A stretch of DNA of 64,000 bases from assembly GCA_021741155.1 (NCBI GenBank), contig JAIOYP010000004.1:62001-126000 (forward strand). The letters run 5' to 3'. The translations under genes were made by a program, and so were the position numbers. The notes under the pieces were generated by a model. It searched no databases, had not been told where the DNA came from, and saw only the letters and a list, made by a program, of their open reading frames with translations. This DNA comes from Flavobacteriales bacterium (GTDB lineage Bacteria > Bacteroidota > Bacteroidia > UBA10329). Positions 2,821-25,525 of this stretch are shown piece after piece; the first letter of the stretch is position 1; each line of letters opens with the position of its first letter.

Positions 2821-3549
2821 TCATTTGATTCGCTGTAGTAACACATCAAAATTTTTCCTAATCTGATTTTCCATGCTTCTTACATCCAACTTGTGGATGT
2901 GAGACAGGAAATCAATAACGTACCTCACGTCACTTGGTACTGTCGCCTTATTCCTATGCATAGCATAAGGGGCATCGCTTTCAGTAAGAATCCGATCAAC
3001 GGGAATCTTTTCGATGATTCGCTTACCCTTCGGATTTGCAATCATAGACGGGTTAACAGAAAAGTAATATCCTGCTCGGATGATGTCGTCTAGTATCTCC
3101 AGTGAACCTGAGTACCAATGAAAAATCGCGTTGACAATTTTATACTCAGATAAAAGGTGCAACACTTCCCTCTCTGCTTTGCGAGAATGAATACTCAGTA
3201 TCTTTTTCCTAATCTGAACACATTCAAGCACGAATCGAAATGAATCAATTTGAATACTCTTGGTTTCAATCCCTTCCATTGAAAAATCCAGTCCCACTTC
3301 TCCTACGTAAGAAGTTCGGTCAATAAGTCGAGCAAACCGGGTTCTCTCCTGCAGATGTTCTTCTGCCATCAGCGGATGAAGGCCAAGTGCGAGCCTCGCA
3401 TATTTACACCTGCCAATATGAGGATGCCCCATTTCAAAATGGCTTGGCAGATTGGTCATGCCAATAACCACTATTTTTCTATCCTCAATCTCCTTTACAA
3501 TCGATAAAGGATTAGGGAACATATCAAAATGGCAGTGTACGTCAATCAT
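2821..3549 (-). CDS. qatD: QatD, TatD-like metal-dependent DNase of the Qat defence system
   Basis: This 242-residue protein has TatD-family metal-binding features: HCHFD at residues 4-8, GEVGLDFS near the middle, a SIHSRKAE segment, HWYSG, and TESDAP near the C-terminus. TatD enzymes are TIM-barrel nucleases using divalent metal. I start at the ATG directly before IDVHCHFD because metal motifs of this family sit at the very N-terminus; a longer frame adds nine residues. It overlaps the end of qatC by 8 bp, which suggests translational coupling. Family and position (last gene after a KAP ATPase, QatB-like and QueC-like genes) identify it as QatD rather than housekeeping TatD. Confidence 0.88.
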   Translation of the reverse strand: MIDVHCHFDMFPNPLSIVKEIEDRKIVVIGMTNLPSHFEMGHPHIGRCKYARLALGLHPLMAEEHLQERTRFARLIDRTSYVGEVGLDFSMEGIETKSIQIDSFRFVLECVQIRKKILSIHSRKAEREVLHLLSEYKIVNAIFHWYSGSLEILDDIIRAGYYFSVNPSMIANPKGKRIIEKIPVDRILTESDAPYAMHRNKATVPSDVRYVIDFLSHIHKLDVRSMENQIRKNFDVLLQRIK

Positions 3550-4894
3550 ATAATCCCGAAAGTTCCCCTTTAACAAATGAATTCCCCTTGTCGTTAATCC
3601 ACTTAGCCACTTCTTCTCTTGAGCGTATTACCAGGGCTGCGAATTCATCCAACGTTGGAAGATTAGCACCATTCACCAATAAATCTCGCTTAATGGTTTC
3701 ATGGGTAAGTCTCCTTTTCAGATAACTGAACAGGGCTGGCATATCGACATATTTCTTCAAGGAATCAGCATTAAGAATATCGTTTCCATATAGTTGGGTA
3801 TCCCTTCCAATGGCGTGTAGCGCGGATCTACGGTATATGCATGGCATGCATACCCCGCAATGGGAAGTCCCTTCTCGTATATCCCAATTTTGCTTTCTAC
3901 CTCTTTTTCCACATGACACAGATTGTTCATATATGCCATTTAGAACATTTCTATTAGTGCAATTCACTATCATCTCACCTTTTGTTGAGTTGAAGTAGGG
4001 ATTACTCAAGGTCACATCAATACCGAGATCAGGCAACAGAGATTGGATTTTTTGGAATACATATGGGTGAGTAGTCCGTGTACTTAACGTGCTTATTCGT
4101 GAGGGAGTAAGAGGATAATTTATTGATATAGGTCCATTCTCTGGGATAATTAGGCTATTCGTTACACTTACATACACACCCAAGCTAATGAACAAGAGTG
4201 ACCTGCTACGAAAACTTGATTCTCTTGGAAATACTTGCCTGTTGTTATCACGTTTTGACAAAGTAATAGGAGCTTGAAGCCAGTACACCTTTCCAGAATA
4301 ACTAGTACTCAGAAAATCCTGTAGCCTTGTTTGATCTGCATTCGGTCCTGGAGAGCCAGAATCAAAGTGTGACATAAGCACGATTTTCTCTTGGCCGTCA
4401 AGTTTCTCCAACTCATCAATAATCCCAATGAGAGAGTCCAGCCCTCCAGAAAAAAGACTCGTTTCCTTTATCAATGGTTTATCATAAGTGGGTCTCCTGC
4501 GTTGTCGAATATCCACGTAATAGCTTTCTATTTCGCTTTGAGAAAATGAAACAGACCATGAATCTCCCGTGAGAAAATCCAGCACTTGTTTAAGTGAAGA
4601 TTCACGACCAGTCCAAATCCCCAGATTGCAAACGGGAAAGGATACTTCTATTTCTCGCGACCAGCCGTCAACTGAATACTTTTCCCTGTCCAACAGATTA
4701 TCTATGCCATACACTATAGACGAGATAAGAAAAAAATCGAATCGAACAGAAGATGTATCCTGTACAAAATTGCCTAGGTGCTTGAAGTTGATCTTGAGTT
4801 CAACCACCCGGTTTATCCCGTGCTTGTCCACAAAGCTCATCTCAACTTTGGAAAATCCATACACCGCTTCTGTCAATCCTATTTCTACTTTCAT
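3542..4894 (-). CDS. qatC: QatC, QueC-like PP-loop protein of the Qat defence system
   Basis: A 450-residue protein related to QueC (7-cyano-7-deazaguanine synthase). The PP-loop ATP-pyrophosphatase motif SGGLDS is present at about residues 150-155, and a C-terminal zinc-type cysteine cluster is visible (HCGVCMPC), preceded by another Cys upstream (SCGK). It is about twice the length of housekeeping QueC, with an extra N-terminal region of roughly 140 residues, which is usual for the defence version. The ATG start lies one base after the qatB stop; a TTG nine bases upstream would overlap qatB. In Qat systems its exact chemistry is not established; nucleotide or peptide modification is inference. 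Confidence 0.9.
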   Translation of the reverse strand: MKVEIGLTEAVYGFSKVEMSFVDKHGINRVVELKINFKHLGNFVQDTSSVRFDFFLISSIVYGIDNLLDREKYSVDGWSREIEVSFPVCNLGIWTGRESSLKQVLDFLTGDSWSVSFSQSEIESYYVDIRQRRRPTYDKPLIKETSLFSGGLDSLIGIIDELEKLDGQEKIVLMSHFDSGSPGPNADQTRLQDFLSTSYSGKVYWLQAPITLSKRDNNRQVFPRESSFRSRSLLFISLGVYVSVTNSLIIPENGPISINYPLTPSRISTLSTRTTHPYVFQKIQSLLPDLGIDVTLSNPYFNSTKGEMIVNCTNRNVLNGIYEQSVSCGKRGRKQNWDIREGTSHCGVCMPCIYRRSALHAIGRDTQLYGNDILNADSLKKYVDMPALFSYLKRRLTHETIKRDLLVNGANLPTLDEFAALVIRSREEVAKWINDKGNSFVKGELSGLYD

Positions 4895-4895
4895 G

Positions 4896-5642
4896 TTATT
4901 CAAATACAGTTAATACATCTTGGTAAACGTTCTTTATTACCCGATCACCTTCCTCAGAACTCCAATCGATTTCATGCAGTGGGTTCCTTTTCTGCATATC
5001 CACAAGTCGTTCTACAATGAATTCCCTAATCTGCCTGAACAGGCCTTGACAATCGCCCTCATTCTTACTACTTACGAGATGTTCGTATAGCAATATGGAG
5101 AGGTGCTCGTATATATAATACCCGAAGTACTTTATTATTAAATCTTCCGAAGTGTTGAATGAAAAAGATTGTTCTAATAGTACTTCAATCTCTTCAATTG
5201 ACGAAGCATTGGAAACAAGTTCTTCCAGTAATCTTCTTGATGCTTCCTTGGCAGCACGGTCGTCAATCGTAGAAGTTTCTCCAGAACAGTATTGGATAAG
5301 ATGGTCAATGACATCAGAGACCGTCTTTCCAGTCAAATCCGTTAGACCAGTTTCCGCAAGAGCTTGACGTATGTTATTTCCTCCACCACTGAACGCACTG
5401 AAAAAAGTACCAAGACGTTTGGCAGTATTAATTCCACTTCTTCCTACCACTTTCGATGATCCACGCCCAGCAGTTGAGGATCCACCGATAGCTTCAACAT
5501 AGTGTCGAGTTATATTTGATAATCTTTCGGGGGTAAGGGTAGTGCCATCACAACTTCTTGTTACCGCATTACTTAACGCAGGCCAGTTTGGCATTACACC
5601 AGATTTCCCTTTAACGTTGGAAAGTGATTTAGATGTACCCAT
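4896..5642 (-). CDS. qatB: QatB, Qat defence protein of unknown activity
   Basis: A 248-residue protein with no catalytic motif that I recognise. The N-terminus is Ser/Gly/Thr-rich (TSKSLSNVKGKSGVMPNWPAL, then a Gly-rich GGSSTAGRGSSK segment), followed by a mostly helical acidic region. No signal peptide or membrane segment is visible. It lies 2 bp after qatA and 1 bp before qatC, so it is clearly co-transcribed. The assignment rests mainly on gene order and size in the four-gene Qat arrangement. The glycine-rich N-terminus resembling a flexible tail could be a substrate or partner-binding region, but that is speculation. Confidence 0.82.
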   Translation of the reverse strand: MGTSKSLSNVKGKSGVMPNWPALSNAVTRSCDGTTLTPERLSNITRHYVEAIGGSSTAGRGSSKVVGRSGINTAKRLGTFFSAFSGGGNNIRQALAETGLTDLTGKTVSDVIDHLIQYCSGETSTIDDRAAKEASRRLLEELVSNASSIEEIEVLLEQSFSFNTSEDLIIKYFGYYIYEHLSILLYEHLVSSKNEGDCQGLFRQIREFIVERLVDMQKRNPLHEIDWSSEEGDRVIKNVYQDVLTVFE

Positions 5643-5644
5643 AT

Positions 5645-7522
5645 TTATTTCGTTGAATTATTCAGATTAAACGCCTTACCCGTTTTACTACCATCCCCTT
5701 TAAAATACTCCGTCAAAAACCCTCCCACCTCAGGATGGTCCTTAAGTCTATTCAAGACAAGACCTATGGCTGGTGAAATTGTGGACTTGGCCACTTTCTG
5801 CAATACTTCTGTATAACTAGCGGCAGCCCCAGACACACTTTTGTTAATCATTGTGATAAACACCTTATGAAGGTTATCTTTATCTGGGTTTCTAAAGAAC
5901 ATTTTCTGAAAGTACTCTAGAAAGGCGTCCCTGTCAATCGAAGTTAGTGGTAGCACTTCGGATTCAATAATTTTATCAACTACTCCCTGCGAGACATCTT
6001 GATTTAATTTGTTCGCGAGCGTCTTTATCATTGGAGACACCAGACTCGAACCAGAAATAGATGCGGTGACTCGATCACGAGAAATCCAAAAATAATCGCT
6101 GAGGTCGATGTCGGAAAACGAAGGTGCCAACGCCAACCAAGTTACAATCTTGGGCTTTGCCCAGTCCTTATATTTTTCTCCAAATCGTCCCATTGCCTCT
6201 TCAAGGGAGACATCTTTACAGAAATCCTCCAACTCTCCAATTTCAGCGGGGTGGCCCTTCTGAATCAACTGCCAATCGAACAGATTCTTAAATAATCGTA
6301 ATTCGGTGTATTCCAAGATCATGAGCTTAGCTAATACCGCATCGTTAAACTCACTCATGGAAGCAACACCCGCCAGTCTTTTCCTTAATGTGTAGGTGTT
6401 TAGGAAACGTTTTATCTGACGAGGATTTCCATAGAGGCTTTGGGCAATAAGTGGCGCAAGAGACGGTATGGTGATGATGTTTTGTTTGACCTGTTCATGT
6501 TCAGCAGGCTCTAGAATCGATTGAAAATTGCTCAATCCGAATGCGCTATACCTATCCTTTATCCTATAAGCATGAAATTCATTCAGGACAGAAGAAAATG
6601 ACACTGGGCTAACTGCGCTTTTACAAATCAGCATTGACATATATGTCTCCACTTCCGGTTCAGATAGCTTGGGAAGATAATATGGAATCTGAATGAGCTT
6701 TTCAAGATAATCATCGACTATCCGTGTATTCTCGTTATCAACACGATTATCGGTTTTATAACGATACTCAATCGCGTGGCGGACAACTCTAGGGTCAGCC
6801 CCAATAACAAACGCTGTTTTCTCGACATTCAAAAAAAGCTTGATGGCTTCCAGATTCTCTATAATTCTATCTGGCGCACACCTATCTAGGTCATCGATAA
6901 TTATGACTAAACGCTTAATAGACGACTTATCTAGCAAACTTTTGAATTCATTTCTGAATTCTCGCACAAGAGTTGATACGTCATCCTCTTCTTTTTTTAT
7001 AATGGACTTCAGAAACTCTTCGGAATCACTTCCTTGAACCTTTTCTAGAAATTTATCGGCTCCCATTTTCTGAGCCATGTCACCAAGCAGTGACAATCCT
7101 CCCGTTGCATAAGCAGATGCGACAGGTAAAGCAATATTCTTAAACCCAAGACCCAAAAGGCGCATCCATTGCACGGACTTGAGCAATTTAGTGGTTTCGT
7201 CTTTCACTTTGTGACCAAGTGTTTTATGGTCATCAAACGCCTTTACAATAGATTCTAGGATCGCGGCTTTCGCATCATCATACCCTTCAAACACCCAACC
7301 ATTAAAGTACAAAACCAACGTATCATCCTTCAGTATATCTGGATTATCAGATACCAATTCGTCATGCACGATTTTGAGGATACTAGATTTCCCACTTCCC
7401 CAATCTCCAAACACTCCAATTGTTGTAGGGAGGACAGCTTCATCTTTGATTACGTTAAGAATCAAATCAGCGTGTACCCGAAATCCTAGCAAATCTTCTG
7501 TTGTCTCGTTATCTGACCACAT
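5645..7522 (-). CDS. qatA: QatA, KAP-family P-loop NTPase of the Qat defence system
   Basis: A 625-residue KAP-type NTPase. Walker A GDWGSGKSS lies at about residues 39-47 and Walker B VIIIDDLDRCAPDR at about 206-219, both close to the KAP consensus. A hydrophobic stretch (LGLGFKNIALPVASAYATGG) at about 120-140 sits between the two, where KAP proteins often carry membrane or helical insertions. KAP ATPases are commonly the sensing or motor part of anti-phage systems. It is the first gene of the operon; a TAnnTTTG box lies about 47 bp upstream of the ATG and a terminator separates it from the preceding operon. Confidence 0.9.
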   Translation of the reverse strand: MWSDNETTEDLLGFRVHADLILNVIKDEAVLPTTIGVFGDWGSGKSSILKIVHDELVSDNPDILKDDTLVLYFNGWVFEGYDDAKAAILESIVKAFDDHKTLGHKVKDETTKLLKSVQWMRLLGLGFKNIALPVASAYATGGLSLLGDMAQKMGADKFLEKVQGSDSEEFLKSIIKKEEDDVSTLVREFRNEFKSLLDKSSIKRLVIIIDDLDRCAPDRIIENLEAIKLFLNVEKTAFVIGADPRVVRHAIEYRYKTDNRVDNENTRIVDDYLEKLIQIPYYLPKLSEPEVETYMSMLICKSAVSPVSFSSVLNEFHAYRIKDRYSAFGLSNFQSILEPAEHEQVKQNIITIPSLAPLIAQSLYGNPRQIKRFLNTYTLRKRLAGVASMSEFNDAVLAKLMILEYTELRLFKNLFDWQLIQKGHPAEIGELEDFCKDVSLEEAMGRFGEKYKDWAKPKIVTWLALAPSFSDIDLSDYFWISRDRVTASISGSSLVSPMIKTLANKLNQDVSQGVVDKIIESEVLPLTSIDRDAFLEYFQKMFFRNPDKDNLHKVFITMINKSVSGAAASYTEVLQKVAKSTISPAIGLVLNRLKDHPEVGGFLTEYFKGDGSKTGKAFNLNNSTK

Positions 7523-8294: not shown

Positions 8295-9044
8295 CTAATT
8301 CTGGTAAGTCCGTGAATCAGTATTGTCCATCATTTTCTGGTAGTAGTGATAGAGTGTCATCCATAAGGAATATGGTGTTCGTAGTCCTTGGGTGTTCAAT
8401 CCTGGGATTGAGTAATCAGCGAGATGTGTTTCTCGGTATCCAGTGCCATCCTTGTAGATAAGCACAGTCCTTTCCCCGTTTTTGGTTGTAATCGCCTCTT
8501 TGTCTATGAGGAGTTGCTCGATAGCTCCAGAACGCTGGAGGTCCTTCTCAAATTGCTGAATGTCGTTCTTGGTAAACAAGTACTGGTTTCCTATGCTAGA
8601 GTCCGTCTCTTTTGTAGGAGTTTCTTTTGTTGTCGGCACATTATGCGCAGGTGTCTGTGCAGGTTTTGCTTTGGTGTTTTGCGAATTCACAGGGTTTCCA
8701 CAGGGATTTTTGAAGCGATAGAAAAGCCGAAGCTTTCCTTTTCGCTCTTCAGGTGTTTTAAGTTGCGCACCTCGCTCCCCGATTACCTCAATGAAGCCGC
8801 TCTTTATGAGTTGAGCGGTTGCTTGAGATATGGCACGCTTTGAACAGCCCGTCTTGCCTCGGAGTTGTGACCCCGATATCCAATCGATCTGTTTTCTCTT
8901 TCCTGTTCGTTCGTCTTTCCATCCCCATGTTTGGCGGATGATGATGAGCAGCAATTTCAATTCGGCTGGTTTCAGTCTTGCCAAATGCTCATCGAAAAGA
9001 CCGTTGGGAACAGGTGTCGTCCCTTGCAGTCCTGTATGTTCCAT
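8295..9044 (-). CDS. Replication protein O-like winged-helix protein
   Basis: A 249-residue protein whose N-terminal 110 residues resemble the winged-helix domain of phage/plasmid replication initiators (TPVPNGLFDEHLARLKPAE, then LLLIIIRQTWGWK, then GSQLRGKTGCSKRAISQA). The middle is a Pro/Thr-rich linker and the C-terminus ends with an aromatic helix (LWMTLYHYYQKMM). Such proteins bind origin DNA and help load a helicase; here the target could be the DnaA-box region near 10.6-10.7 kb. It lies 6 bp after a 66-residue gene and 12 bp before the methyltransferase, in one operon. It could instead be a transcriptional regulator with the same fold. Confidence 0.6.
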   Translation of the reverse strand: MEHTGLQGTTPVPNGLFDEHLARLKPAELKLLLIIIRQTWGWKDERTGKRKQIDWISGSQLRGKTGCSKRAISQATAQLIKSGFIEVIGERGAQLKTPEERKGKLRLFYRFKNPCGNPVNSQNTKAKPAQTPAHNVPTTKETPTKETDSSIGNQYLFTKNDIQQFEKDLQRSGAIEQLLIDKEAITTKNGERTVLIYKDGTGYRETHLADYSIPGLNTQGLRTPYSLWMTLYHYYQKMMDNTDSRTYQN

Positions 9045-9552: not shown

Positions 9553-10485
9553 TCAGGCCGTAAATCGATATGGGCTGTCAATCCTGTGCAATTTTTTCCC
9601 TGCGGTCGTTTCCATTGGCAAGAACTTCTTGAGCAGTTCCCCTTGTTCTTGTAAGTTCAGTCGAACATAAATCTCGCTGGACGTGATGTTTGAATGACCT
9701 GCTATGCTCTGAATCTGATGCCGGTTCCCTCCCGCATTCAATATTTCATGGCACTTACCATGACGAAAAGCGTGAGGCCGAATCGGAAAACCAAGGAAGT
9801 TCTGGAGTTCCTTACACCAGCGTTGGACGCTCCGTTGTTGGAGTGGCGTTCGCTCACCTGCATTTCGACTGCTTGGTGCGGTTTGGAACAGACTTGCCCC
9901 TTTATTCATGCAGATGCGAATACCGATGTACTTCATAAGTAATCGGTGGCATTCATCATTCCACATGACCATGCGGAGTTTCTTCGTTTTGAGCGTAGTG
10001 ATGTACGTGTAGTTACGGTCGGTCTGTATGTCCGCGATTTTCAGTGAGAGGAGTTCAGATATTCTCATACCTGTATTCCATAGGAGCTGAAACACCACCT
10101 TCCTTGTCAGTTGGTTGAAGTCGTCTTCATCAAGCGTGTCGTCTATGAGTTCAAACTGCTGTCGGCTGATGAAGTCTGGGAATGTTTCGGTGATGCGCGG
10201 GCCTTGTATAAGTTCCCACGAGATGGTGCTTTCATCTTTTGCCGACCAATGTTTGAAGAACGCCCTGATGGCATTGGCATGCAGTGACCGTGTTCGTTCC
10301 TGATAGATTCCCTTCAGGTACGCGAGGTAGTCGTCCAAGATGTCGTCATTGACGGTGCTCAGTTCGGGGTTGTTCAGCCACTTGCAGAACAGCTTCAGTA
10401 CGCTTTCATAGGTACTTACGGTTCTTGCCGACAGTCGGCTTGAACGGCTTTTGATATATAATTCTATTGACTTTTCAAATTTCAT
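9553..10485 (-). CDS. Tyrosine recombinase, XerC/D-like size
   Basis: A 310-residue site-specific recombinase. The N-terminal SAM-like core-binding domain spans about residues 1-95, and the catalytic domain follows. Catalytic signatures are visible: first Arg in WNTGMRISELLSL, HAFRHG for His-x-x-Arg, and GHSNITSSEIYVR with the second His and the nucleophilic Tyr. The ATG at 10485 is preferred over a GTG two codons upstream. It is distinct from the larger integrase near 24 kb; it may resolve multimers of the mobile element or belong to a second nested element. The 3' end carries a short hairpin, and a GC-rich hairpin lies just upstream of the start. Confidence 0.88.
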   Translation of the reverse strand: MKFEKSIELYIKSRSSRLSARTVSTYESVLKLFCKWLNNPELSTVNDDILDDYLAYLKGIYQERTRSLHANAIRAFFKHWSAKDESTISWELIQGPRITETFPDFISRQQFELIDDTLDEDDFNQLTRKVVFQLLWNTGMRISELLSLKIADIQTDRNYTYITTLKTKKLRMVMWNDECHRLLMKYIGIRICMNKGASLFQTAPSSRNAGERTPLQQRSVQRWCKELQNFLGFPIRPHAFRHGKCHEILNAGGNRHQIQSIAGHSNITSSEIYVRLNLQEQGELLKKFLPMETTAGKKLHRIDSPYRFTA

Positions 10486-10492
10486 AGGCACA

Positions 10493-10700: not shown

Positions 10701-11116
10701 AGGGATGTGATACCATATTGTAGAAAAGAAGTCAAGTTCCCCGCCCAAGGCCCGATGAAGGTCACATTACCGAGCTTGCACGTGGCTGCTTCACGTCTTA
10801 CGTGACAATCCCGTCAAAGCGACCCTTTCATTCGCACAGAAACCGATTCGCGACACTCTTTTCCCGATGGCCAGAGTGTACTCGAAACCGTTTCTTTTCC
10901 CCACGCTAGAGCCTTTCTGTTCCCTACTCATTCCCCATAATCCGGTCTGCCCTGATGTGTGAGCCGTGTCCAGTGCATGGGCATGATAATCCCCCCAAGA
11001 TTGGACAAGGTCGTAACCTGCGCAAGCAATGCTATCCTACGGACATTCCTACTTGCACCGGTTCCTATTCCCTTGTCCTTGAATCTGGGAGATTATCAAT
11101 TAACCCATTAAGCACT
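10701..11116. other. Non-coding region upstream of the DUF7222-like gene
   Basis: No supported gene is seen. A frame that extends the following gene upstream through this region has Cys/Pro-rich, atypical composition and is not accepted. A short inverted repeat, CACGT-GGCTGCTTC-ACGTG-like, occurs around 10780-10805. Confidence 0.3.
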
Positions 11117-11485
11117 ATGTACACAAAAAATCACACACATCTTACCAGCAGACTAACGGACATCATGGAAAATGAGCGAGACACCATCCGCGCAAAAGTT
11201 GCCGAAGCGGCACTTGAATACAGTGGCGGTGAACCACTTTCCTTTTTCCGAAATCTTCTTTCGCACGGTTGCGTGAGCGGCATGGTTAATTCCCTCATCT
11301 ACTACGTCGACACCCACAGCTTCTTCGATGAACATTATGATGCGATTGAAGAACTTCGCATCGAGCATCTTGAAGATTGTGGAGAACCACTTCGTATAGA
11401 TGGCGATCTTAAGAACACGCTGGCTTGGCACGCATTTGAAGAGACGGCAAGAAGAATGGCGGATGAAATGGAATTGGACCTGTGA
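11117..11485 (+). CDS. DUF7222-like hypothetical protein of mobile elements
   Basis: A 122-residue acidic, helical protein. The core (FFRNLLSHGCVSGMVNSLIYY, then FDEHYDAIEELRIEHLED, then DLKNTLAWHAFEETARRMA) resembles a small domain recurrent in Bacteroidota phages and conjugative elements; I believe it corresponds to DUF7222, from memory. I start at the ATG before YTKNHTHLTS; a longer frame to 10955 has atypical composition, and a shorter start 16 codons further in is also possible. It is the only plus-strand gene in this part of the island. Function unknown. Confidence 0.6.
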   Translation: MYTKNHTHLTSRLTDIMENERDTIRAKVAEAALEYSGGEPLSFFRNLLSHGCVSGMVNSLIYYVDTHSFFDEHYDAIEELRIEHLEDCGEPLRIDGDLKNTLAWHAFEETARRMADEMELDL

Positions 11486-11660
11486 CGGGTCCTTTTCCGT
11501 CATGTGATTTTGGGGATTGAGGAGGAGGGATGAGAGGAAGAATTCGTTGCTGAGGTTTCAGCCTGCTGGGCAGGGCAAGATAGCCTTGTGACGGGAACGC
11601 TAGGGCGATTCTCTTACACAAGGCGATCTTGGCAGGAAGTGTCCTGCACCTCTCAAGTTG

Positions 11661-13302: not shown

Positions 13303-14163
13303 TCAATTCCTGTCAAAGTCGTCCCTATTCCTTGAAGAGTGTTCACTACTCATTCGCATATTATCAAGTTCTGAAAGACGTGTGTGTTGCAGGTCAAGTT
13401 CCGTCACTTGCTCTGGTTTCAATCCTAACCGTGAAAACCGCATCTTCTTCCCTTGTTCACTCCAAAGAATCCCTTGGACTCTGCCCCTGTGGTTATAGGT
13501 TGCGAAGCCTTGTTCTCGCAGATTCAGATAGAACTGCTCTGAGTTTTCCGATATGCGGAAAATGCCTTGGATACGTTCACTGAGTTCTTCGCGTGTGAGC
13601 TTCAGCTCAGGATTCCGCTTTTGCTTGTAGTAGGCTTTCTCACTGAATTCCTTTTTCCCCCAAGCTTGTTCATCGATACCAATAGTAAGCGAAGGATGAT
13701 GTTCCCGCATGTACCGGAGCATTTCCATATGAACGCTCCTAAGGTTTTCCTTGGAGAGCCGAGTTGATTCTTTACTCATCAGTTCATTGGCACTGACTAT
13801 AAGATGAGAATGCCAATGCTGTTCTGATTTGTGATGGGTTCCGAACGCAAGGGCATTTGGGTAGGTTTTTTGGATGTATGTGTTTACAAGGTCATCCATG
13901 ATCTCCACGCTCATCTTTTCACGGTCGAGCGGGTTGACCGAAAGAATCACATGCACCGCCTTATTTCCGTTCCTGCGTTTCTTGGCGAAGTCGGCATAGT
14001 TGGTCTGGAATTCAAGGGTTATACCATCAAGGTCAGTGCGGTTGAGATTATGAAAAATACCCTGCGTATGATGGTCTTCAATGTGGCCCTTGTCAGTTGC
14101 GATGTACGCAACAACGTTAGCCACCGCGTTATACGTCTTGACGGGGAGAATCTTGATAATCAT
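13303..14163 (-). CDS. Relaxase / mobilization nuclease (MobP/MobB type)
   Basis: A 286-residue DNA-nicking relaxase. The N-terminus carries YNAVANVVAYIATDKG, followed by a nuclease core with VHVILSVNP and the histidine cluster EQHWHSHLIVSANE (about residues 115-130). That cluster corresponds to the metal-binding HxH motif of relaxases. It would nick one strand at oriT and lead it into a recipient. It is the last gene of the mobilization operon, overlapping the preceding MobC-like gene by 35 bp. At under 300 residues it is short, but the C-terminus is a normal variable charged tail. The oriT is probably nearby but was not identified. Confidence 0.85.
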   Translation of the reverse strand: MIIKILPVKTYNAVANVVAYIATDKGHIEDHHTQGIFHNLNRTDLDGITLEFQTNYADFAKKRRNGNKAVHVILSVNPLDREKMSVEIMDDLVNTYIQKTYPNALAFGTHHKSEQHWHSHLIVSANELMSKESTRLSKENLRSVHMEMLRYMREHHPSLTIGIDEQAWGKKEFSEKAYYKQKRNPELKLTREELSERIQGIFRISENSEQFYLNLREQGFATYNHRGRVQGILWSEQGKKMRFSRLGLKPEQVTELDLQHTRLSELDNMRMSSEHSSRNRDDFDRN

Positions 14164-14617
14164 AGAGCCATTCGATTATAAGAGGCGAATCAGTGGGGCG
14201 TTCTCTGAGATGTTCCCTGAGTAGGTCGATAATGTTAGGCGGGCGGGTGATGGTATTGCGGACTTCCCTTTCTAGTGTTTGTAGCAGGAACTGAAACTGC
14301 TTGACTTCCTCCAGCGTGATACCCTTTTCGTAGTGGGCATATCGGGTGAGCTGGTTGGCGTTGTTACCAATTCTCCGCAAGGCGAGTGAAAGTTCTTGAA
14401 GGCGGTTATCTGACGGCAGGACATAACCCGTGCCGTGTATTTCAGCGGAGATGAGGGCTTTGAGATAATCAGAAACCTTCAGTCCCTTTTTCTTTGCATG
14501 GCGTTCTAATTCCTTTGCTTCGGGTTTGGGTAGGCTTAGGGTATAGGTGCAATTCCGTTCTCGGAACCGTTTTTTCCTGAGCGTTGCTTTTTCTCTATGT
14601 CCTACATCTTTAGACAT
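14129..14617 (-). CDS. MobC-like relaxosome accessory protein
   Basis: A 162-residue protein with a basic N-terminus and a ribbon-helix-helix-like segment (LPKPEAKELERHAKKKGLKV). It then has the MobC signature LRRIGNNANQLTRYAH in the second half. MobC proteins bind oriT and assist strand separation for the relaxase. I choose the ATG before SKDVGHREK because it overlaps the coupling-protein stop by 8 bp; an upstream start would give 12 further hydrophobic residues inside that gene. It overlaps the relaxase by 35 bp, indicating coupled translation. Confidence 0.85.
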   Translation of the reverse strand: MSKDVGHREKATLRKKRFRERNCTYTLSLPKPEAKELERHAKKKGLKVSDYLKALISAEIHGTGYVLPSDNRLQELSLALRRIGNNANQLTRYAHYEKGITLEEVKQFQFLLQTLEREVRNTITRPPNIIDLLREHLRERPTDSPLIIEWLYDYQDSPRQDV

Positions 14618-16055
14618 ACTGCTTTTTGTCCTGAACCAATGCGTCAACATCAATGAGAGGAAGTTCCCTTGCTGACTGGCTTGTAATATGTGGCGGTGGC
14701 ATTTCGCTCATGGTTCGGAGCGACCTATCCTTGAAGTAGGGTCTGACATTCACTTTCATGGGGCGGTAGGAACCTGCTGCGAGTATGGCGGTACCTTCAT
14801 CCATGTGTACCAGTTCGGACACGGTCATCACTTCACGCGAACCTTGTCCTTTTCCGTCCTCCCTTTCAAACGTCCATCGACCAAGACGTTTTTCAAGCTC
14901 TTGGGCCAAATCAGTTTCCATGCCGGGGAAAATGAGTTTGCTCCAAGAGTTAGCGAGAATCGTATGTGCGTCATGACTGCCATAGCGTTCGATGAGCTGA
15001 GCACGAGACTGTATGGCGTACATGATTCCAACACGGTACTTTCTGAGATTGCTAAGTGCCTCTGCGAACCCTTTGATTGTGAGTGACCCTAGCTCGTCAG
15101 CAAGAATCAACACATCGAGTTTATTCTTCTCTGGGATAATGCGCATGAGTTCACGGAAAAGTTGCGTGAAGAAAATTTCAATCAGGAAAGAGTAATACGA
15201 GGCGTCCATAACGTCCGTCCAGATGTATATCGCAGTTTTGGAATCCCTGAAAGATTGTAGGTCGAGAGTATCGGACCCCGTGCATTTCGCAACAGCTTCA
15301 TCTCCGAAAATGCGGACACCACTTTCAGCAGTTGCAAGTACATTGGAAAGCAACTTCCCTTCTTGACTGATGGTCGCTTTGTATTCAGTGAACAGCTGGT
15401 CGTCTGCATAAGCTGAGTACAATTGATCGACCTTCTTTGGGTCAGCTTGCATGAGACTGATGAGATACCTCGTATTGGCCAGCGTTTGGTATTGAGTAGG
15501 AAGGGTCTTTTGAAGCTTGAAGATGGTGACGAGTAGTTTGGCTCCCATTTGAGGCCAGAAGATGTCGCGACTGTTTCTAAACTGTGGGTCAAGAATCATT
15601 TCAGCGAGCATGTTGAGCTCTGTGCTGGTTGAAGCCCGCTGCAAGGGGTTGAACCCAAGAGAGATTGACGGGTCTTTAAAATCAAGCACTTTGATCGTGT
15701 AGCCTTTGCGATGTAGTTCGCCTGAGGTCTTTCGGAAAAGTTCTTTGGCCGGATCCAAAAACACTAAAGAGCAATCATCCATTCCTAGTGCAGTTGGAAT
15801 CAAAGCACCTGTGGTTTTTCCTCCACCGCTTTGACCGATAAGTACCGCGTGTTTGAATGAATGGTCACGGGTTATCTTGCCGTCTCCTAAACAAAATCCT
15901 TTGTTCCATCTTGAAAGTAGCGAAGAAGGATTCCCGAAGTCATCATCATACGTCTGCTTACGCTGCTCTTTGAAGAACTGGACCACAATCGCAATCAGAA
16001 GGAACAATGCGATGAGATGCCAGAGCTTTGGTGTGAAGATGTAGAGGTATTCCAT
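14610..16055 (-). CDS. VirD4/TraG-type coupling protein
   Basis: A 481-residue type IV coupling ATPase. An N-terminal membrane segment (LWHLIALFLLIAIVVQFF, about residues 11-28) is followed by Walker A LIGQSGGGKTTG (about 72-83) and Walker B VLILADELGSL (about 308-318). Coupling proteins deliver the relaxase-DNA complex to a type IV secretion channel. No channel genes are visible, so the element would need one from elsewhere or from outside the window. It lies 7 bp after a 51-residue membrane protein and overlaps the MobC-like gene. Confidence 0.9.
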   Translation of the reverse strand: MEYLYIFTPKLWHLIALFLLIAIVVQFFKEQRKQTYDDDFGNPSSLLSRWNKGFCLGDGKITRDHSFKHAVLIGQSGGGKTTGALIPTALGMDDCSLVFLDPAKELFRKTSGELHRKGYTIKVLDFKDPSISLGFNPLQRASTSTELNMLAEMILDPQFRNSRDIFWPQMGAKLLVTIFKLQKTLPTQYQTLANTRYLISLMQADPKKVDQLYSAYADDQLFTEYKATISQEGKLLSNVLATAESGVRIFGDEAVAKCTGSDTLDLQSFRDSKTAIYIWTDVMDASYYSFLIEIFFTQLFRELMRIIPEKNKLDVLILADELGSLTIKGFAEALSNLRKYRVGIMYAIQSRAQLIERYGSHDAHTILANSWSKLIFPGMETDLAQELEKRLGRWTFEREDGKGQGSREVMTVSELVHMDEGTAILAAGSYRPMKVNVRPYFKDRSLRTMSEMPPPHITSQSARELPLIDVDALVQDKKQYV

Positions 16056-16062
16056 ATGCGTG

Positions 16063-16218
16063 TTACTTAAGGATGACCCTGAAAAGGTTCTCGACCGCTT
16101 GTAAAAGGAAGACCAAAAGTTTCAGGGTAGCGACCGCGATCCACATGATAAGTCTGCCAATCGATTTGATTGTTTCCCAAATCATGCCCATCATATCGTT
16201 ATCCGTTCCTCTGCTCAT
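16063..16218 (-). CDS. 51-residue membrane protein in the mobilization operon
   Basis: The frame begins ATG AGC AGA at 16218 and encodes MSRGTDNDMMGMIWETIKSI followed by a long hydrophobic amphipathic stretch (IMWIAVATLKLLVFLLQAVE) and LFRVILK. It exactly fills the gap between the neighbouring genes: 2 bp after the upstream stop and 7 bp before the coupling protein. The single membrane helix and position suggest it may assist or regulate the coupling protein. It is short enough to be missed by usual cut-offs; no relative is recognised. Confidence 0.6.
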   Translation of the reverse strand: MSRGTDNDMMGMIWETIKSIGRLIMWIAVATLKLLVFLLQAVENLFRVILK

Positions 16219-16220
16219 GG

Positions 16221-16940
16221 CTATTGTGTAAGATCAAGCCCCGCTTGTATGAAGACTTTTGCTCCTCGCCCTTCCAACATCTGCCGGTACAATTTTGATG
16301 CTATTGCAAACTGGGAGTCTTCGTTCCGTTCGAGAGGACGGTACACCAGATGTACGGTGATACCTTGGAGATTACTCAACGGCAACTGTTGCTGGAACAT
16401 TGAGATAATTCGTGCAGGAGTATCCTTCAGAACTGTGAAGGTCTTTGCATCATAGAAGGAAATGTCGCCATGCTCCATCAGGTCACTATACACGATGAGA
16501 GTCCGTTCATCGGCTTTACTTTGCGCAAGGGCGTTGAGTTGTTTTGCCAGCGGTAGATATACAGAGGAATGTTCACGACCCTTCTTTTCATTTCTCTGTT
16601 CGGCTGATATGCGGTCAAATTCCGATAGGAACCCTTTCACTTCTTTATCCCTCTCAAGCTGATTGCTAAACCAACGACTTCGTTGCGGTATGGAAATTTT
16701 CCATACTCTATTAAGACTGAGATTACTGATAGGTAGGGTTGTAAAGCGGATCCCAGCCCACGAGTCATTCTTGAACTGGAAATGCTCTTTGATAACATCC
16801 ATTTCAGGTTGCAGCCCATCCGTTTCGGTCACATCAGTAAGAAGAACAATCTCTTTGGCATAGGTCTGTCCTTGGGCGATCCACGTGGTCAGAATAACCC
16901 CGACCAGAATTATTACAGGAATGATTACGAGCGGTCTCAT
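16221..16940 (-). CDS. Secreted or membrane-anchored vWA-like protein
   Basis: A 239-residue protein with an N-terminal signal or anchor (LVIIPVIILVGVILTTWIAQG, residues 4-24). The soluble part has a von Willebrand A-like layout. A first strand EIVLLTDVTET carries a degenerate Asp-x-Thr-x-Thr MIDAS motif, and a later strand LIVYSDLMEHGD carries a second Ser-Asp. A C-terminal half follows with HLVYRPLERNED. vWA domains usually mediate metal-dependent protein binding. It overlaps the upstream gene by 4 bp (ATGA). A role in recipient contact or in assembling the transfer machinery is inference. Confidence 0.6.
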   Translation of the reverse strand: MRPLVIIPVIILVGVILTTWIAQGQTYAKEIVLLTDVTETDGLQPEMDVIKEHFQFKNDSWAGIRFTTLPISNLSLNRVWKISIPQRSRWFSNQLERDKEVKGFLSEFDRISAEQRNEKKGREHSSVYLPLAKQLNALAQSKADERTLIVYSDLMEHGDISFYDAKTFTVLKDTPARIISMFQQQLPLSNLQGITVHLVYRPLERNEDSQFAIASKLYRQMLEGRGAKVFIQAGLDLTQ

Positions 16941-18124
16941 GGCGTTGCGATATGAAGGCTTTCTTGTAATGAATCATTGACATCGAAACTGCTGAAGGTT
17001 GAATTACCATCCGACCGATATTGGATGTTCTCGTGGAGAAAGTCTGAAACACTTTGTCTTAAAAGTGAGTGTATCCAGTCACGCATACTCTTCTCGCGCT
17101 TCGGCATGTTCTCATAATCTTTCATTAACGCCTTACGGTGCGTTTGCATCTCCGCCAATTCCGTGTCCGTCTCTGTTTTTTCTCGGTTTGTATCGGCAAT
17201 GGCCTTTTCCATTTTCATCTGCCTAACTTTATGTTTGACAGCTTCCCATGTAGGACATTTCGTGAGTACATATCCCGTTGCAAGGAGGAGGAGCCAATTC
17301 ACTAGGATGAACATCACGGTCGAGATCTCCTCTGTACTTCCAGTAGCTTTCAAGTAGTCCATCCTGAGATGTGCCAGAAAGTAGAAGACTATGGTATAGA
17401 AAACTGCCCAACCAAGTATGATGAGCCATCGTTGTGCTGAGGTCTTGGCGATAGAGAGGGTTTTTCTGTAGCCATGGAACAGGAGCATGATAGCGGCAGA
17501 AACACCCACTGCCATGATCATTGAGAACAAAAGGTTCTGTCCGAATATCTGGAAGGCCATCCCGTTGAAACCAGTTTCGGCTGCTAACATGAAGAGTACC
17601 GCCAATAGCACGAATGGGAAAACCTTCCATGGATAATCCGAACTATCATGTGGCAGTTCTTTATCTAAGATTGCCAGCTTATGGGTAAGCTGATGGGACT
17701 TGTCAATGGATTGCGAGATTCGTTCATCAAGCTGTTCAATAGCTGAATCAATTTCACCACTGACCTTATCAAGGTCGCGTTTGGATTCTTGATAGATCAC
17801 CCTATATCCTTCTATGATGAAGTGGATATAGTGGTTGAGAGAATCCTTGGCCAAGGGAAGGTTCTGCTTTCCGAAGAAGCGACCTTTGTCCTTTGAATCG
17901 TGATTGAGCTGAGTATGCTTGCGCTGAACTTCTTGTTCAAGCGCATCAAGCGTGCCTATGCTTGAGGAAGCGAGAATTAGCGTTTTCATTTGTTGCGGTT
18001 TTAAGTGTTGGACTTGTTTAGATTTTGATGTGTCGTTTATATTGTACCATGACCCCGAAACGGGTTCAACTGGCCCGGCCCGTATCATACCGGTTACTCT
18101 GAGGTGCTCGGAACCAGTGCTCAT
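16937..18124 (-). CDS. Four-pass membrane protein with flanking coiled coils
   Basis: A 395-residue protein. Two long coiled-coil regions (about 125-165 and 300-350) flank four hydrophobic segments (VFPFVLLAVLFMLAAETG, LLFSMIMAVGVSAAIMLL, WLIILGWAVFYTIVFYFLA, VMFILVNWLLLLATGYVL). Cytoplasmic coiled coils on both sides suggest an oligomeric membrane scaffold. The ATG at 18124 overlaps the upstream stop by 4 bp; an internal ATG at 17989 before KTLILASSS is the other candidate, and the first 45 residues look weak. Overlaps link it to the vWA-like gene and then to the coupling protein. I do not recognise its family. Confidence 0.65.
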   Translation of the reverse strand: MSTGSEHLRVTGMIRAGPVEPVSGSWYNINDTSKSKQVQHLKPQQMKTLILASSSIGTLDALEQEVQRKHTQLNHDSKDKGRFFGKQNLPLAKDSLNHYIHFIIEGYRVIYQESKRDLDKVSGEIDSAIEQLDERISQSIDKSHQLTHKLAILDKELPHDSSDYPWKVFPFVLLAVLFMLAAETGFNGMAFQIFGQNLLFSMIMAVGVSAAIMLLFHGYRKTLSIAKTSAQRWLIILGWAVFYTIVFYFLAHLRMDYLKATGSTEEISTVMFILVNWLLLLATGYVLTKCPTWEAVKHKVRQMKMEKAIADTNREKTETDTELAEMQTHRKALMKDYENMPKREKSMRDWIHSLLRQSVSDFLHENIQYRSDGNSTFSSFDVNDSLQESLHIATP

Positions 18125-18351
18125 TTCCCGAGTTTCCAGATGATGTCATAGTATGTGGGAGAAGTTCCCAAGGCGAGGAGCAGATCACTGTCCGTCAGTG
18201 TTTCCTTCTCCGCAGGAAGACTGATGAATGTGCCTTTGCTTCGGTGACGGAAATGAAGATTTCCTTCTGATTGGTGATTCTCCCTGTACCCGTACTCAGA
18301 GAGTTGTTCCCACACTTGATGGGCGGGATAGGTTTTGGCGGTTCTTTTCAT
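18121..18351 (-). CDS. Small HicA-like basic protein, first gene of the mobilization operon
   Basis: A 76-residue protein. VWEQLSEYGYRENHQSEGNL, then HFRHRSKGTFISLPAEKE, then LLLALG is consistent with the alpha-beta-beta-beta-alpha order of HicA/dsRBD-like folds. The classical HicA Gly-Ser-His is not clear and no HicB partner follows. It ends with an ATGA overlap onto the coiled-coil membrane gene, so it leads the seven-gene operon. It could be a small nucleic-acid-binding regulator of that operon. Confidence in the gene is moderate; in the fold, low. Confidence 0.5.
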   Translation of the reverse strand: MKRTAKTYPAHQVWEQLSEYGYRENHQSEGNLHFRHRSKGTFISLPAEKETLTDSDLLLALGTSPTYYDIIWKLGK

Positions 18352-20834: not shown

Positions 20835-22598
20835 CTACCTCATCACAACGACCCTTTCATGATGGAGGGCTCGACCATTTTCAAGGATTCTGAGCACATA
20901 TACATCGGGGGCTAACCCTTGAACGTCAATTCGAGTCTGCTCTTTGAGAACAGTGCCCAGAGAAACAATCTGTCCAGTACTGTTCATGATTTCATACGAG
21001 AGTGAGCCCGTGGTATGGGTTACTTCAAGATGGAATTGACTGTGAGCGGGATTAGGATAGACGACCACTGAAAATTCATCCGACCGGGAATCGACCGTTG
21101 TCACTATGTCTGGAACGGCAAGTGTATTGAACTTAGCAACTAAGAAATCGCCATTGCCAAAGCGAGGTACTGCGGCCACCCCTGTATGATGGTTAAGTGA
21201 AAACGTGTTGGTGCTTGGGTTTTGGTCAATGAAATTTTCAACGAGGTAGACGTTATCCTGAAACGTTGCATGTTTTTGATTTGAAGCATTGTAGAAGTCT
21301 TGACTATCATCTACAAACGCGCAGCTGGCATTAAAAGGGTCAGCGGTCTCCAACCAGCTACAGGTTTCAAGTTCTTTCATGTCATTGAATTTGAGCACGA
21401 AGATTTCACCTTCGAGTACCCCATCACCGATATAGTAGGAAGACGTGTCACCAAATACATCCCAATTCGTGTTACCACGACCCGAGACGTACAAGTTGAT
21501 TTCTTCATCATAACTGACCGTGTATCCGCGCACAGAGCCAGACCCCCATTGTGATGAATCAGAGCCAAAGGCATGCCATAGAACGTTTCCTGATTCATCA
21601 TATTCAAAAATGAAGATTGTCCTTCCTGATGTATTTGGAGAAGTGATGGCACCAAAATCAACCGCACCTTCAAAGAACCCTGTAGTCGCGATGCGATTAT
21701 CAGGACTTACGGCAACGCCAAACCCACCCAGTTCAGCATTAGGACCAAGTCCTTTTTTCACCCATTGGATTTGACCGCTGCTGGAATACTTGGCTAGGTA
21801 GTATGAGTTGTAGTTGGTACCCGTCACTGTGATGTTGTCGAACACCACACTGGTGCCGAAGAATCCTGTCATGTATGCATTCCCGCTTGCATCTACGGCA
21901 ACATCCATCGAGGAATTTCCAGAGAAGAAACCCGAGGCACCGCCTTTCCGTGCCCACTGAACGTTGCCACTTGCACTCAGTTTGAAGATAAGGGATTCTG
22001 TAGCGTTGTTCGAGTTGGTGGAAATCTCAATGCCATCGAGCATTAGGGATGAACTGCTATGAAAGCCACTGACGATGATATTGTTATTGGGGTCGACAGC
22101 TACTCCCATGGGTATGTCGTATCCGGTTCCCAAGAAGGCTTTTGACCATAAATGGTTTCCTGATGGATCAGTTTTGAGTACGAAGATGTCTGAACCCTCC
22201 AGCATCGAATTATAGGTCGTTCCCCCAAAGGTGGTAGAGCCAAAAAAGTTACCGATGATGACAAGATTCCCATCATGATCAATCACCATATCCCGTGGTC
22301 GCTCTGCGCCAGGTGTCGTTCCTCCATAGGACTCTGCCCAAAGACAGGTGCCCGATGAATCAAGCTTTGCGATGAAGACGTTGTCGTTATCAAGGGCTGG
22401 AAGTGTAAATGCCCCGAATTGAATCTGACCGTGATACGATCCGGTGATATATACATTCCCTTGTTGATCTGTTGCCACAGCTAGAATCAGGTCTTCAAAG
22501 GCACTGGTACTGCCATACGAGTTAATCCATTCGAGCTGTTGGGCAGAGGCAGAGAATAAGCTTAAAACAAGAAGGGTTGAGGTGACGATGTGCTTCAT
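20835..22598 (-). CDS. Secreted SBBP-repeat protein with T9SS sorting domain
   Basis: A 587-residue secreted protein with an N-terminal signal peptide (HIVTSTLLVLSLFSASAQ). It has at least six beta-propeller-type SBBP repeats of the pattern VATDQQGNVYITGSY or VDPNNNIIVSGFH, typically 45-60 residues apart. The C-terminal about 75 residues form a type A T9SS sorting domain (VVVYPNPAHSQFHLEV, then GLAPDVYVLRI). It should be exported across the outer membrane by the T9SS and anchored or released. As island cargo it may act in adhesion or surface interaction; that role is inference. Confidence 0.88.
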   Translation of the reverse strand: MKHIVTSTLLVLSLFSASAQQLEWINSYGSTSAFEDLILAVATDQQGNVYITGSYHGQIQFGAFTLPALDNDNVFIAKLDSSGTCLWAESYGGTTPGAERPRDMVIDHDGNLVIIGNFFGSTTFGGTTYNSMLEGSDIFVLKTDPSGNHLWSKAFLGTGYDIPMGVAVDPNNNIIVSGFHSSSSLMLDGIEISTNSNNATESLIFKLSASGNVQWARKGGASGFFSGNSSMDVAVDASGNAYMTGFFGTSVVFDNITVTGTNYNSYYLAKYSSSGQIQWVKKGLGPNAELGGFGVAVSPDNRIATTGFFEGAVDFGAITSPNTSGRTIFIFEYDESGNVLWHAFGSDSSQWGSGSVRGYTVSYDEEINLYVSGRGNTNWDVFGDTSSYYIGDGVLEGEIFVLKFNDMKELETCSWLETADPFNASCAFVDDSQDFYNASNQKHATFQDNVYLVENFIDQNPSTNTFSLNHHTGVAAVPRFGNGDFLVAKFNTLAVPDIVTTVDSRSDEFSVVVYPNPAHSQFHLEVTHTTGSLSYEIMNSTGQIVSLGTVLKEQTRIDVQGLAPDVYVLRILENGRALHHERVVVMR

Positions 22599-22968: not shown

Positions 22969-24183
22969 TTAATTCCCTCCTATGACCTTCTCCAGTGCTT
23001 CATCGGTATCCTTGAAGATGAAGTTCGATTGGTAGTTCACCGTGGTGGTGATGTTGGAGTGTCGATACAGTTTTTGAAGCATTTGTACGGGAATCTTGTC
23101 TCCTGAGATATTGCCGAAGGTGTGTCGAGCGATGTGCATACTGACCTTCTTTTCAATTCCAATCTCTGGAGTGATTTTCTTGAGTTGCTTGTTGAGTCTA
23201 CTCACCGCCTCGGAGGTTTTCTTTTGAACCATGTACTTGTCGTTGAGGTCCTTTACCACTTCAAGTTCCGGAAAAACCAGATTGTGTATACGCTTCCTCT
23301 CAATGTACTTGTCGAGTATCCTTTGGGCTTTGGGGGATACTTTGAACGAACCTGATTTGTCATTCTTCCCCATTGTGTAGTACAGCCTTCCATCTTGAAA
23401 GTCTGACCACTTAAGGCGAAGGACATCAGATACGCGCATCCCAGCGAAATAGAAAGAGATGAGCCAGATGTTACGTGCATGATCTTGGATGGGAGAAAGG
23501 GCAGCTTCTTCGAGTATGGTCACTTCATCCGGTGAAAGGCCAATTTTCACGGAATCAGGGAACTTGATTTGAATCCCGTGTTTTCCGAAGGGATAGTGTT
23601 CAGCGGTGACGAATCCCGCTTGAATAGCCTGATTGAAGATGGTGCGTATGATGATGAGGTGATTGATGATCGTTCGGTCTTTAATGTTCCGAGTGCGTTT
23701 GAGGTACGCGCTAAATCTCCGAAGGAGCGGGATGGTGATGTCTTGAAAGGCGATGTCAGCCCCATCCAAGAACTCTCTGAAATGATTGATGCGAGGTTTC
23801 TCTGCAACGTACCTGTTGAAGCTCCCTAAGTCTCGGAGGTTTTTGAGGTAGTCTTCCTCTGCGTAGCGGAAGAAGGATGAACCCTTCCCTGTTCCTTCAA
23901 CGGTTTCTTTGATTGCTTTGGCAGTTGTTCGCTTACGCTTCGTTTGGTCGTCAATGGCTTGCCCGCTTAACTCCGCTACTTTGTGAGCGATGAGGTTATT
24001 GAGCCGTGCTGCGTTCGAGTGCTTCTTTACCTGACAGGTGACTTCATCCCACTGATCGAGGCGAAGTTGGTATCCGAGATGGATGAATGAGCTTTTCCTA
24101 TCTTTGGTAATGCGGATGGCAAGGGGGTAGGTGCCATCCTTTTTACTCTCCTTCTTTCTGAGTACTGCTTTAACTGATGCCAT
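22969..24183 (-). CDS. int: Tyrosine integrase of the island
   Basis: A 404-residue phage-type integrase of the Bacteroidota class. An N-terminal arm-binding domain (MASVKAVLRKKESKKDGTYP, then IRITKDRKSSFIHLGYQ) is followed by a SAM-like core-binding domain and a catalytic domain. The catalytic domain shows FAGMRVSDVLRL (first Arg), HIARHTFG (His-x-x-Arg) and YRHSNITTTVNYQ (second His and nucleophilic Tyr). I start at the ATG before ASVKAVLR; the upstream extension of 30 residues is out of character. The gene lies about 140 bp from the tRNA-derived attachment site, as in most site-specific integrative elements. It should integrate the island into a tRNA gene with CAT anticodon. Confidence 0.92.
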   Translation of the reverse strand: MASVKAVLRKKESKKDGTYPLAIRITKDRKSSFIHLGYQLRLDQWDEVTCQVKKHSNAARLNNLIAHKVAELSGQAIDDQTKRKRTTAKAIKETVEGTGKGSSFFRYAEEDYLKNLRDLGSFNRYVAEKPRINHFREFLDGADIAFQDITIPLLRRFSAYLKRTRNIKDRTIINHLIIIRTIFNQAIQAGFVTAEHYPFGKHGIQIKFPDSVKIGLSPDEVTILEEAALSPIQDHARNIWLISFYFAGMRVSDVLRLKWSDFQDGRLYYTMGKNDKSGSFKVSPKAQRILDKYIERKRIHNLVFPELEVVKDLNDKYMVQKKTSEAVSRLNKQLKKITPEIGIEKKVSMHIARHTFGNISGDKIPVQMLQKLYRHSNITTTVNYQSNFIFKDTDEALEKVIGGN

Positions 24184-24321
24184 GATGCGGATCGTTTGGG
24201 TACAACATAGGTACAACATTTTCCGATTTGGTACAACATCATCTGGCCTTATTTTTTCACAATCTCCCTTCACACTGGGATTATTGAATCACATGGATCC
24301 ATATGATATCAATAAATTAGG

Positions 24322-24364
24322 ATTCATAACCCTGAGGTCGGGGGTTCAATTCCCCCTCTCGCTA
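24322..24364 (+). other. Attachment site: 3' half of a tRNA gene (CAT anticodon)
   Basis: The sequence folds as the 3' half of a tRNA. It has an anticodon loop with CAT at 24325-24327, the stem's 3' strand CCCTG, the variable loop AGGTC, a perfect T arm GGGGG-TTCAATT-CCCCC, acceptor strand TCTCGCT and discriminator A. The 5' half (D arm, 5' acceptor AGCGAGA) is absent from the left flank. Thus this is the displaced 3' end left after integration, and an intact copy is expected beyond the left edge of the window. CAT can mean Met, fMet or the Ile2 tRNA; I cannot tell which. Confidence 0.75.
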
Positions 24365-24420
24365 CAAAAGCTCTTTGTCTGAGTCATTTCGTTCAATTCC
24401 AAACGAATTTACAAACTATC

Positions 24421-25206: not shown

Positions 25207-25525
25207 TGTCCTAAGGCGGGTTCCTCCTCAACGTGGTCAAGCTACTCAATCAATTTAAAACAAACATATAAGGCGGACAGCACGTTTTACTTCCGTTTGC
25301 ATTTTTCTCCTTCGGGTGAAAAATCGAATCCGCCTAAGGCGGACTATTTTGCGTAGTCGAAGAACGTTGGGGATTACTTCAGTCTTTCCTCCTTCGCAAT
25401 TGCAGAAGCAACCGACTTCGGCCTGATGCACACAGCTCTTGTGTCGCTTAGCCAATAATCATTTAAGCTAATTCCACAATCAAGAACATTATTTCAACGT
25501 ACCGTGTTAAATTTGCGCCCCGTTG
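25207..25525. other. Non-coding stretch between the transposase remnant and cysE
   Basis: No gene is supported. It contains a 13-bp palindrome CCGCCTAAGGCGG (25330-25342), a degraded copy of a TTCAGTCGTTCCTCC-type repeat (about 25377-25404), and the cysE promoter-like box close to the start codon. Confidence 0.4.
25508..25515 (+). promoter_or_regulatory. Candidate -7 box of cysE
   Basis: TAAATTTG matches the Bacteroidota TAnnTTTG consensus and lies 10 bp before the chosen cysE ATG, giving a very short leader. No convincing -33 partner was identified. Confidence 0.4.

Follow-up and report, generated by a model that had tools for sequence, protein, structure and literature searches.

A conserved six-gene mobilization module of Bacteroidota places a short coupling ATPase beside separate membrane and exported proteins

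A review describes both the position of the VirD4 coupling protein within conjugation machines and its contacts with them as unclear (PMC12857230). In pIP501, the membrane protein TraI has been proposed as the anchor of the coupling ATPase (T4CP) TraJ, and in the Legionella Dot/Icm system DotL forms a coupling complex with DotM, DotN, DotY and DotZ (PMC12857230). IMEs with their own relaxase and coupling protein have also been described, and no T4CP is listed for the Bacteroidetes IMEs tabulated in that work (PMC5704250). Finally, vWA and transmembrane (TM) proteins occur near CRISPR loci (PMC10910872).

Here we analyse a mobilization module in a 64,000-nucleotide stretch of Flavobacteriales DNA, which we call the window and whose positions are used below. 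The element that carries the module has a tyrosine integrase, a tRNA att site, a relaxase, MobC and a T4CP in common with the IMEs that encode a coupling protein, and is also like them in that no mating-channel genes were found (PMC5704250). It differs in adding three conserved membrane or exported proteins, namely a four-TM coiled-coil protein (TM4), a vWA-fold protein and a protein of about 50 residues, and in that no helper was found in its genome. The likeness to TraI and TraJ of pIP501 is that of a separate membrane anchor for the T4CP, by role and not by compared sequence, but the window module has several such partners, including the vWA protein. The Legionella complex is alike in having a T4CP that acts within a multi-protein complex, whereas TM4 and the vWA protein have no sequence match to Dot proteins in the PDB or Pfam. 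By analogy, both systems offer precedents for auxiliary T4CP proteins. The IME, the relaxase and the T4CP are known parts, and what appears to be new is the T4CP–TM4–vWA arrangement, of which we found no description in the open-licence literature.

The initial annotation had read seven minus-strand ORFs, overlapping or lying within 10 bp of each other, as one unit. The positions and strand of all seven stand, but the conserved transfer unit consists of six genes: TM4 (16937–17986; 349 aa from the start that is conserved), the exported vWA-fold protein (16221–16940), a 51-aa one-TM amphipathic protein (16063–16218) that is conserved in most loci and makes up the sixth core gene, a short VirD4/TraG-type T4CP (14610–16055; 481 aa), a MobC/NikA-type accessory protein (14129–14617; 162 aa from the conserved start) and a MOBP-type relaxase (13303–14163). 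The proposed identities of the last three are confirmed by Pfam, with PF03432 at 1.3e-7 and a conserved H..H.H.H motif for the relaxase, a match at 1.3e-7 for MobC, and PF02534 at 1.5e-53 together with PF12696 for the T4CP. The T4CP also matches the NCBIfam CD1115-type VirD4 model NF045973 at 4.6e-54, with 184 bits against a curated cut-off of 250. The four genes upstream of the T4CP had been called uncharacterised, and we likewise found no credible Pfam or NCBIfam match for TM4, the vWA protein, the 51-aa protein or the seventh ORF, a 76-residue reading frame at 18121–18351 on the same strand.

The tight spacing is genuine from TM4 to the relaxase. TM4 and vWA overlap by ATGA, 2 bp separate vWA from the 51-aa gene and 7 bp separate the latter from the T4CP; the T4CP/MobC and MobC/relaxase junctions are also real, with the MobC start at 14617 overlapping the T4CP stop and agreeing with the start in L021, a locus from the same genus. 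The junction between the 76-aa ORF and TM4 is different. The listed TM4 ORF extends to 18124, but its first 46 residues are absent from its L021 counterpart (69% identical), and Met47 is the first residue in most relatives, which places the conserved start at 17986. The apparent ATGA overlap between the two ORFs is therefore an artefact, and the true gap is about 135 bp. Nor does the "HicA-like" label given to the 76-aa ORF hold up, since no HicA model in Pfam or NCBIfam matches it; no HicB was recognised next to it. It has one clear relative among 295 genomes, likewise upstream of a TM4, and with recurrence at this one other locus it falls outside the conserved core.

The initial annotation suggested a search for the same gene order in other Bacteroidota, and we found it in dozens of loci. 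Searches with TM4 gave positives in 14 of 156 sampled Bacteroidia genera, a few of the weakest of which were later rejected, and 25 loci in 84,980 species genomes matched a vWA profile, most of them from uncultured Bacteroidota and one from an isolate, Mucilaginibacter rivuli. Locus maps show the order TM4, vWA, small protein (not in every locus), T4CP, MobC, relaxase almost everywhere. When all proteins of 42 loci, nearly all from uncultured Bacteroidota, were clustered, five families made up an exclusive core, present in 40, 40, 37, 37 and 35 loci, and the next family was in 12. A reverse search that started from the T4CP reached previously unused loci that also have TM4 and vWA, so that searches from either end converge on the same loci. 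The T4CP-search loci that lack the full set are those cut by a contig end and L110, whose 5-kb contig has the genes rearranged; in L033 the core genes are split and reordered. Where the flanks are long enough to tell, TM4, vWA and the small protein adjoin the T4CP, MobC and relaxase genes in practically all loci. The refuting condition set by the initial annotation, a lack of such co-occurrence in other genomes, thus does not apply, and the recurring order is not due to chance. No relatives of TM4 or vWA were found in the plasmid collection, nor of vWA in viral contigs.

This conservation bears on the simplest alternative, in which a common promoter is all that links the four upstream genes, as cargo or regulators, to the transfer genes. 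The description fits the 76-aa ORF, given its single clear relative. TM4, vWA and the small protein, on the other hand, are arranged in the same way, at the same site, in over 35 divergent loci, and the gene fusions and distance-matrix correlation presented below also speak against cargo for these three; we regard this alternative as very improbable for the set as a whole.

Three initial TM4 candidates were discarded: L036 encodes a LytS-type histidine kinase next to a response regulator gene, L037 has the same gene sizes, and L038 encodes an unrelated membrane protein. One module (L059) lies on a contig of a MAG labelled Candidatus Wolfebacteria, possibly through misbinning or cross-phylum transfer. 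Seven relatives (L044, L045, L046, L048, L051, L053 and L055) carry an ArdC anti-restriction gene, one of the families next in frequency after the core, in most of them directly 3' of the relaxase, and in these ArdC-bearing relatives two small uncharacterised proteins with a common domain often precede TM4. In L041 (10872–12359), T4CP and MobC lie in one ORF that lacks the T4CP C-terminus and the MobC N-terminus; we rejected a functional fusion in favour of a probable internal deletion.

The vWA-like assignment, at first a guess, is supported by an AlphaFold model with a pLDDT of 90.7, for which the top Foldseek matches are vWA proteins (E about 1e-4, TM-score only 0.3–0.46). No Pfam vWA model matches the sequence. 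The MIDAS is degenerate but retained: in place of the canonical DxSxS there is an invariant D-x-T (D36, T38) with variable residues after it and a later invariant S-D pair (S152–D153), and S125 is nearly invariant. Several relatives have a lipobox and would be lipoproteins. TM4 is predicted to be entirely helical, with a cytoplasmic helix, a coiled coil, four TM helices and a C-terminal coiled coil. It has no structural match in the PDB, and a resemblance to helical pore-forming toxins in Foldseek was rejected at a TM-score of about 0.2 and E of at least 0.01. In L034 and L035, TM4 and vWA are fused in one ORF with a fifth TM ahead of the vWA domain, which implies that the vWA domain should be periplasmic if the TM4 N-terminus is cytoplasmic. 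The small ORF between vWA and T4CP, with one hydrophobic segment, is found in about 34 loci. As called, its product has 38–76 residues in most of them and a common pattern, K...hhhhhW/Y-G-hhR-h-E...K; L035, L042 and L033, with its reordered genes, are among the exceptions, and the ORFs called in L034 and L111 depart from the pattern.

The T4CP of the window has the ATPase core, the Walker A motif (at residue 74) and the PF02534/PF12696 match in common with CD1115-type VirD4/TraG/TrwB proteins. Those proteins have two TMs and a periplasmic loop, whereas the 481-aa window protein lacks this usual N-terminal domain and has a single N-terminal hydrophobic segment (residues 10–28). Two canonical T4CPs from Bacteroidia (L116 and L117) have two TMs as well as 50–70 extra N-terminal residues, and are not accompanied by TM4 or vWA. 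We compared the divergence of the core proteins by partial correlation of distance matrices over 32 loci, which are not independent of one another, and obtained 0.44 for vWA–T4CP, 0.34 for TM4–T4CP, 0.25 for TM4–vWA, 0.47 for T4CP–relaxase, 0.56 for relaxase–MobC and −0.2 for vWA–relaxase. In this analysis the T4CP is the hub, with TM4 and vWA tracking it and not the relaxase, which is linked to the T4CP and to MobC. The gene fusions, the T4CP-centred correlations, the short T4CP N-terminus and a distant locus described next (L162) together favour a split coupling complex, in which the three membrane or exported proteins are probably the missing membrane half of the short T4CP. Of the earlier proposal that the upstream genes form one complex, as a docking or recipient-contact module, the complex and docking parts are thus favoured by the fusions, the correlations and the short N-terminus, and for recipient contact we found no specific evidence.

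The wider family extends beyond mobilization. In L162 (2278–10498), from another class of the phylum, a MOBF (TrwC) relaxase is encoded with a vWA-family homologue, a TM-less T4CP and two multi-TM proteins. Weaker vWA relatives in L163, L164 and L166 lie next to unrelated multi-TM proteins, and no homology to TM4 was detectable in the TM proteins of L162 and L164. In L165 (6942–8848), homologues of TM4 (hhalign 98.8%) and vWA lie inside a type III-A CRISPR-Cas operon with Cas10, Csm2–5, a CARF protein, Cas6 and a 6-TM Mem_01-like protein, and without a T4CP. The PADLOC model Mem_04, for a type III CRISPR accessory gene, gives a weak match (6e-4) in one of 24 members. L165 is the only locus within a cas operon, and no cas genes lie near the window locus. 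L165 resembles the vWA systems reported near CRISPR loci (PMC10910872) in context, but the families of the window occur mainly in mobilization modules. Because the pair occurs in L165 without a T4CP, its basic activity extends beyond coupling and mobilization, and the pair is not exclusive to DNA transfer.

TM4 and vWA may have a gating or signalling role, as an envelope or recipient-contact sensor or an exclusion device that controls the T4CP instead of anchoring it and that type III CRISPR has adopted as a membrane effector. The CARF and 6-TM neighbours in L165 and the unrelated multi-TM partners of other vWA relatives are consistent with such a role, and the invariant MIDAS-like residues suggest ligand binding. 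However, the fixed place directly upstream of the T4CP, the near-universal presence of the pair and its correlation with T4CP divergence look structural, and we consider gating or signalling possible but unlikely.

The module lies on an element of about 27.4 kb. A tyrosine integrase (22969–24273, minus strand) adjoins an attR copy (24319–24365), a 47-bp perfect repeat of the 3' end of a tRNA-Met gene. The second 47-bp copy, which forms the 3' end of the tRNA-Met(CAT) gene itself, lies 3 kb to the left of the window (C16:58928–58974, equal to L127:16928–16974) and emerged from 20 kb of sequence on that side; among direct repeats inside the window alone, no att pair was found. The same-genus locus L021 has the same integrase at 90% DNA identity and an att copy beside it, with other flanking genes. 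Alignments to right-flank gene orthologues from same-genus genomes end at window position 25482, and six other genomes of the genus lack the T4CP. With an integrase and att repeats, a relaxase of its own and no VirB4 gene, the element has these features of an IME, and the operon would be its DNA-processing and coupling module, a component of the overall explanation that we favour below by a modest degree.

The element carries several other genes. A type III-like restriction/helicase gene (ResIII and RE_endonuc; 95–2734) is followed by a complete QatABCD anti-phage system (PADLOC QatA–D; 2821–7522), a Replication-O-like protein (8295–9044) and a second tyrosine recombinase (9553–10491). A plus-strand ORF at 10955–11485 has a C-terminal family also seen at five further loci of this element family, and a T9SS-type secreted beta-propeller (SBBP) protein is encoded at 20835–22598, with similar ones near the module in four other loci.

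A noncoding segment of the element contains a candidate oriT. A long inverted repeat on the minus strand (11576–11631), CAAGATNGC...GCNATCTTG, adjoins a shorter hairpin, GCAGGACACTTCCTGC, at about 11632–11647. The segment folds strongly (z = −4.56) and is 94% identical over 85 bp between the window and L021. Other loci have an inverted repeat with the same constant tips and an inner stem that varies yet remains complementary, often just 3' of the relaxase, and in most copies a second short hairpin adjoins the long one. A tip-only pattern scan of 295 genomes matched 15 of 19 module carriers and 6 of 276 others (Fisher 3e-17, a value that is partly circular in that some scanned genomes helped to derive the pattern); eight of the matching carriers (G059, G068, G084, G087, G159, G173, G195 and G240) were outside the derivation, and a reversed control pattern matched one genome of the 295. 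Of the five inner positions on which the pattern did not select, four or more were complementary in 17 of 18 carrier copies, with varied pair types. There is no Rfam family at the hairpin, and a transcription terminator was rejected for want of a T-run after the hairpin in most loci. The two-hairpin element is probably the oriT; in some carriers the hairpin lies 7–42 kb from the module or on another contig, and it is for this reason that we infer the role.

The absence of type IV channel genes, first remarked for the window, holds at the VirB4/TraG level across the whole draft genome (G000), which has no TIGR03783 or PF19044 match. TraG (TIGR03783) was over the cut-off in none of 15 carriers tested and in 11 of 149 genomes of the class. 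Among 31 carriers, PF19044 detected a strong VirB4 in three, and in another three it scored more weakly but still above the cut-off. Eight additional genomes had no match; four of these are Bacteroidia carriers, and one, G134, is complete. VirB4/TraG is also absent from G009, which has three modules, and from G054, which has two. Most of the searched genomes are drafts, in which a divergent channel could evade the models, and within this scope a known transfer channel was not found in most carrier bacteria. Carriers are not enriched for T4SSs, and, the background being low, the absence is likewise not significant.

These observations raise the question of whether the six genes form a self-sufficient apparatus, with TM4, the small protein and vWA as an envelope conduit that needs no T4SS. 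The missing VirB4/TraG in the genome of the window, G009, G054 and the complete G134, the lack of T4SS enrichment in carriers, the patchy presence of the module among same-genus genomes and the absence of any further gene conserved alongside the core would all fit. Yet genes for an outer-membrane channel, a peptidoglycan enzyme or a pilus are missing from the core, a host that lacks a helper can still retain an element, and in genomes that are mostly drafts a divergent channel could escape the models. We rank helper-dependent docking best and treat self-sufficiency as a real but minority possibility, and an improbable one. The bolder statement that Bacteroidota elements move DNA by a six-gene apparatus without a canonical T4SS, built on a TM–vWA pair that also serves type III CRISPR loci, we consider improbable.

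The explanation we prefer, with somewhat better than even confidence, is a coupling complex whose membrane part is supplied by separate proteins and which docks to a helper channel. The relaxase and MobC would nick the element and hold it at its oriT, for which the two hairpins at 11576–11647 are the probable site, and the relaxosome would be passed to the short T4CP. TM4, the ~50-aa protein and the periplasmic vWA protein would together make up, as separate polypeptides, the membrane and periplasmic half found at the N-terminus of other T4CPs; they would serve as anchors for the T4CP and let it dock to an envelope channel, of which the T4SS of a helper element is the simplest candidate. That helper is assumed, as carriers show no T4SS excess. 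Gene content, conservation, att sites, fusions, distance-matrix correlation and hairpin covariation are the sequence-based parts of the explanation, from which we infer that the proteins form a physical complex, that the hairpins act as oriT, that the T4CP docks to a channel and that a helper is needed.

If the membrane half of a T4CP is divided among individual proteins that can be deleted, as it appears to be here, the placement of VirD4 would become a testable question. Elements of this kind in hosts with no detectable T4SS raise the question of how they move, and through the TM4–vWA pair mobilization is connected with accessory genes of type III CRISPR systems. The elements themselves are mobile DNA of uncultured Bacteroidota from the environment, and the one in the window bears an anti-phage Qat system.
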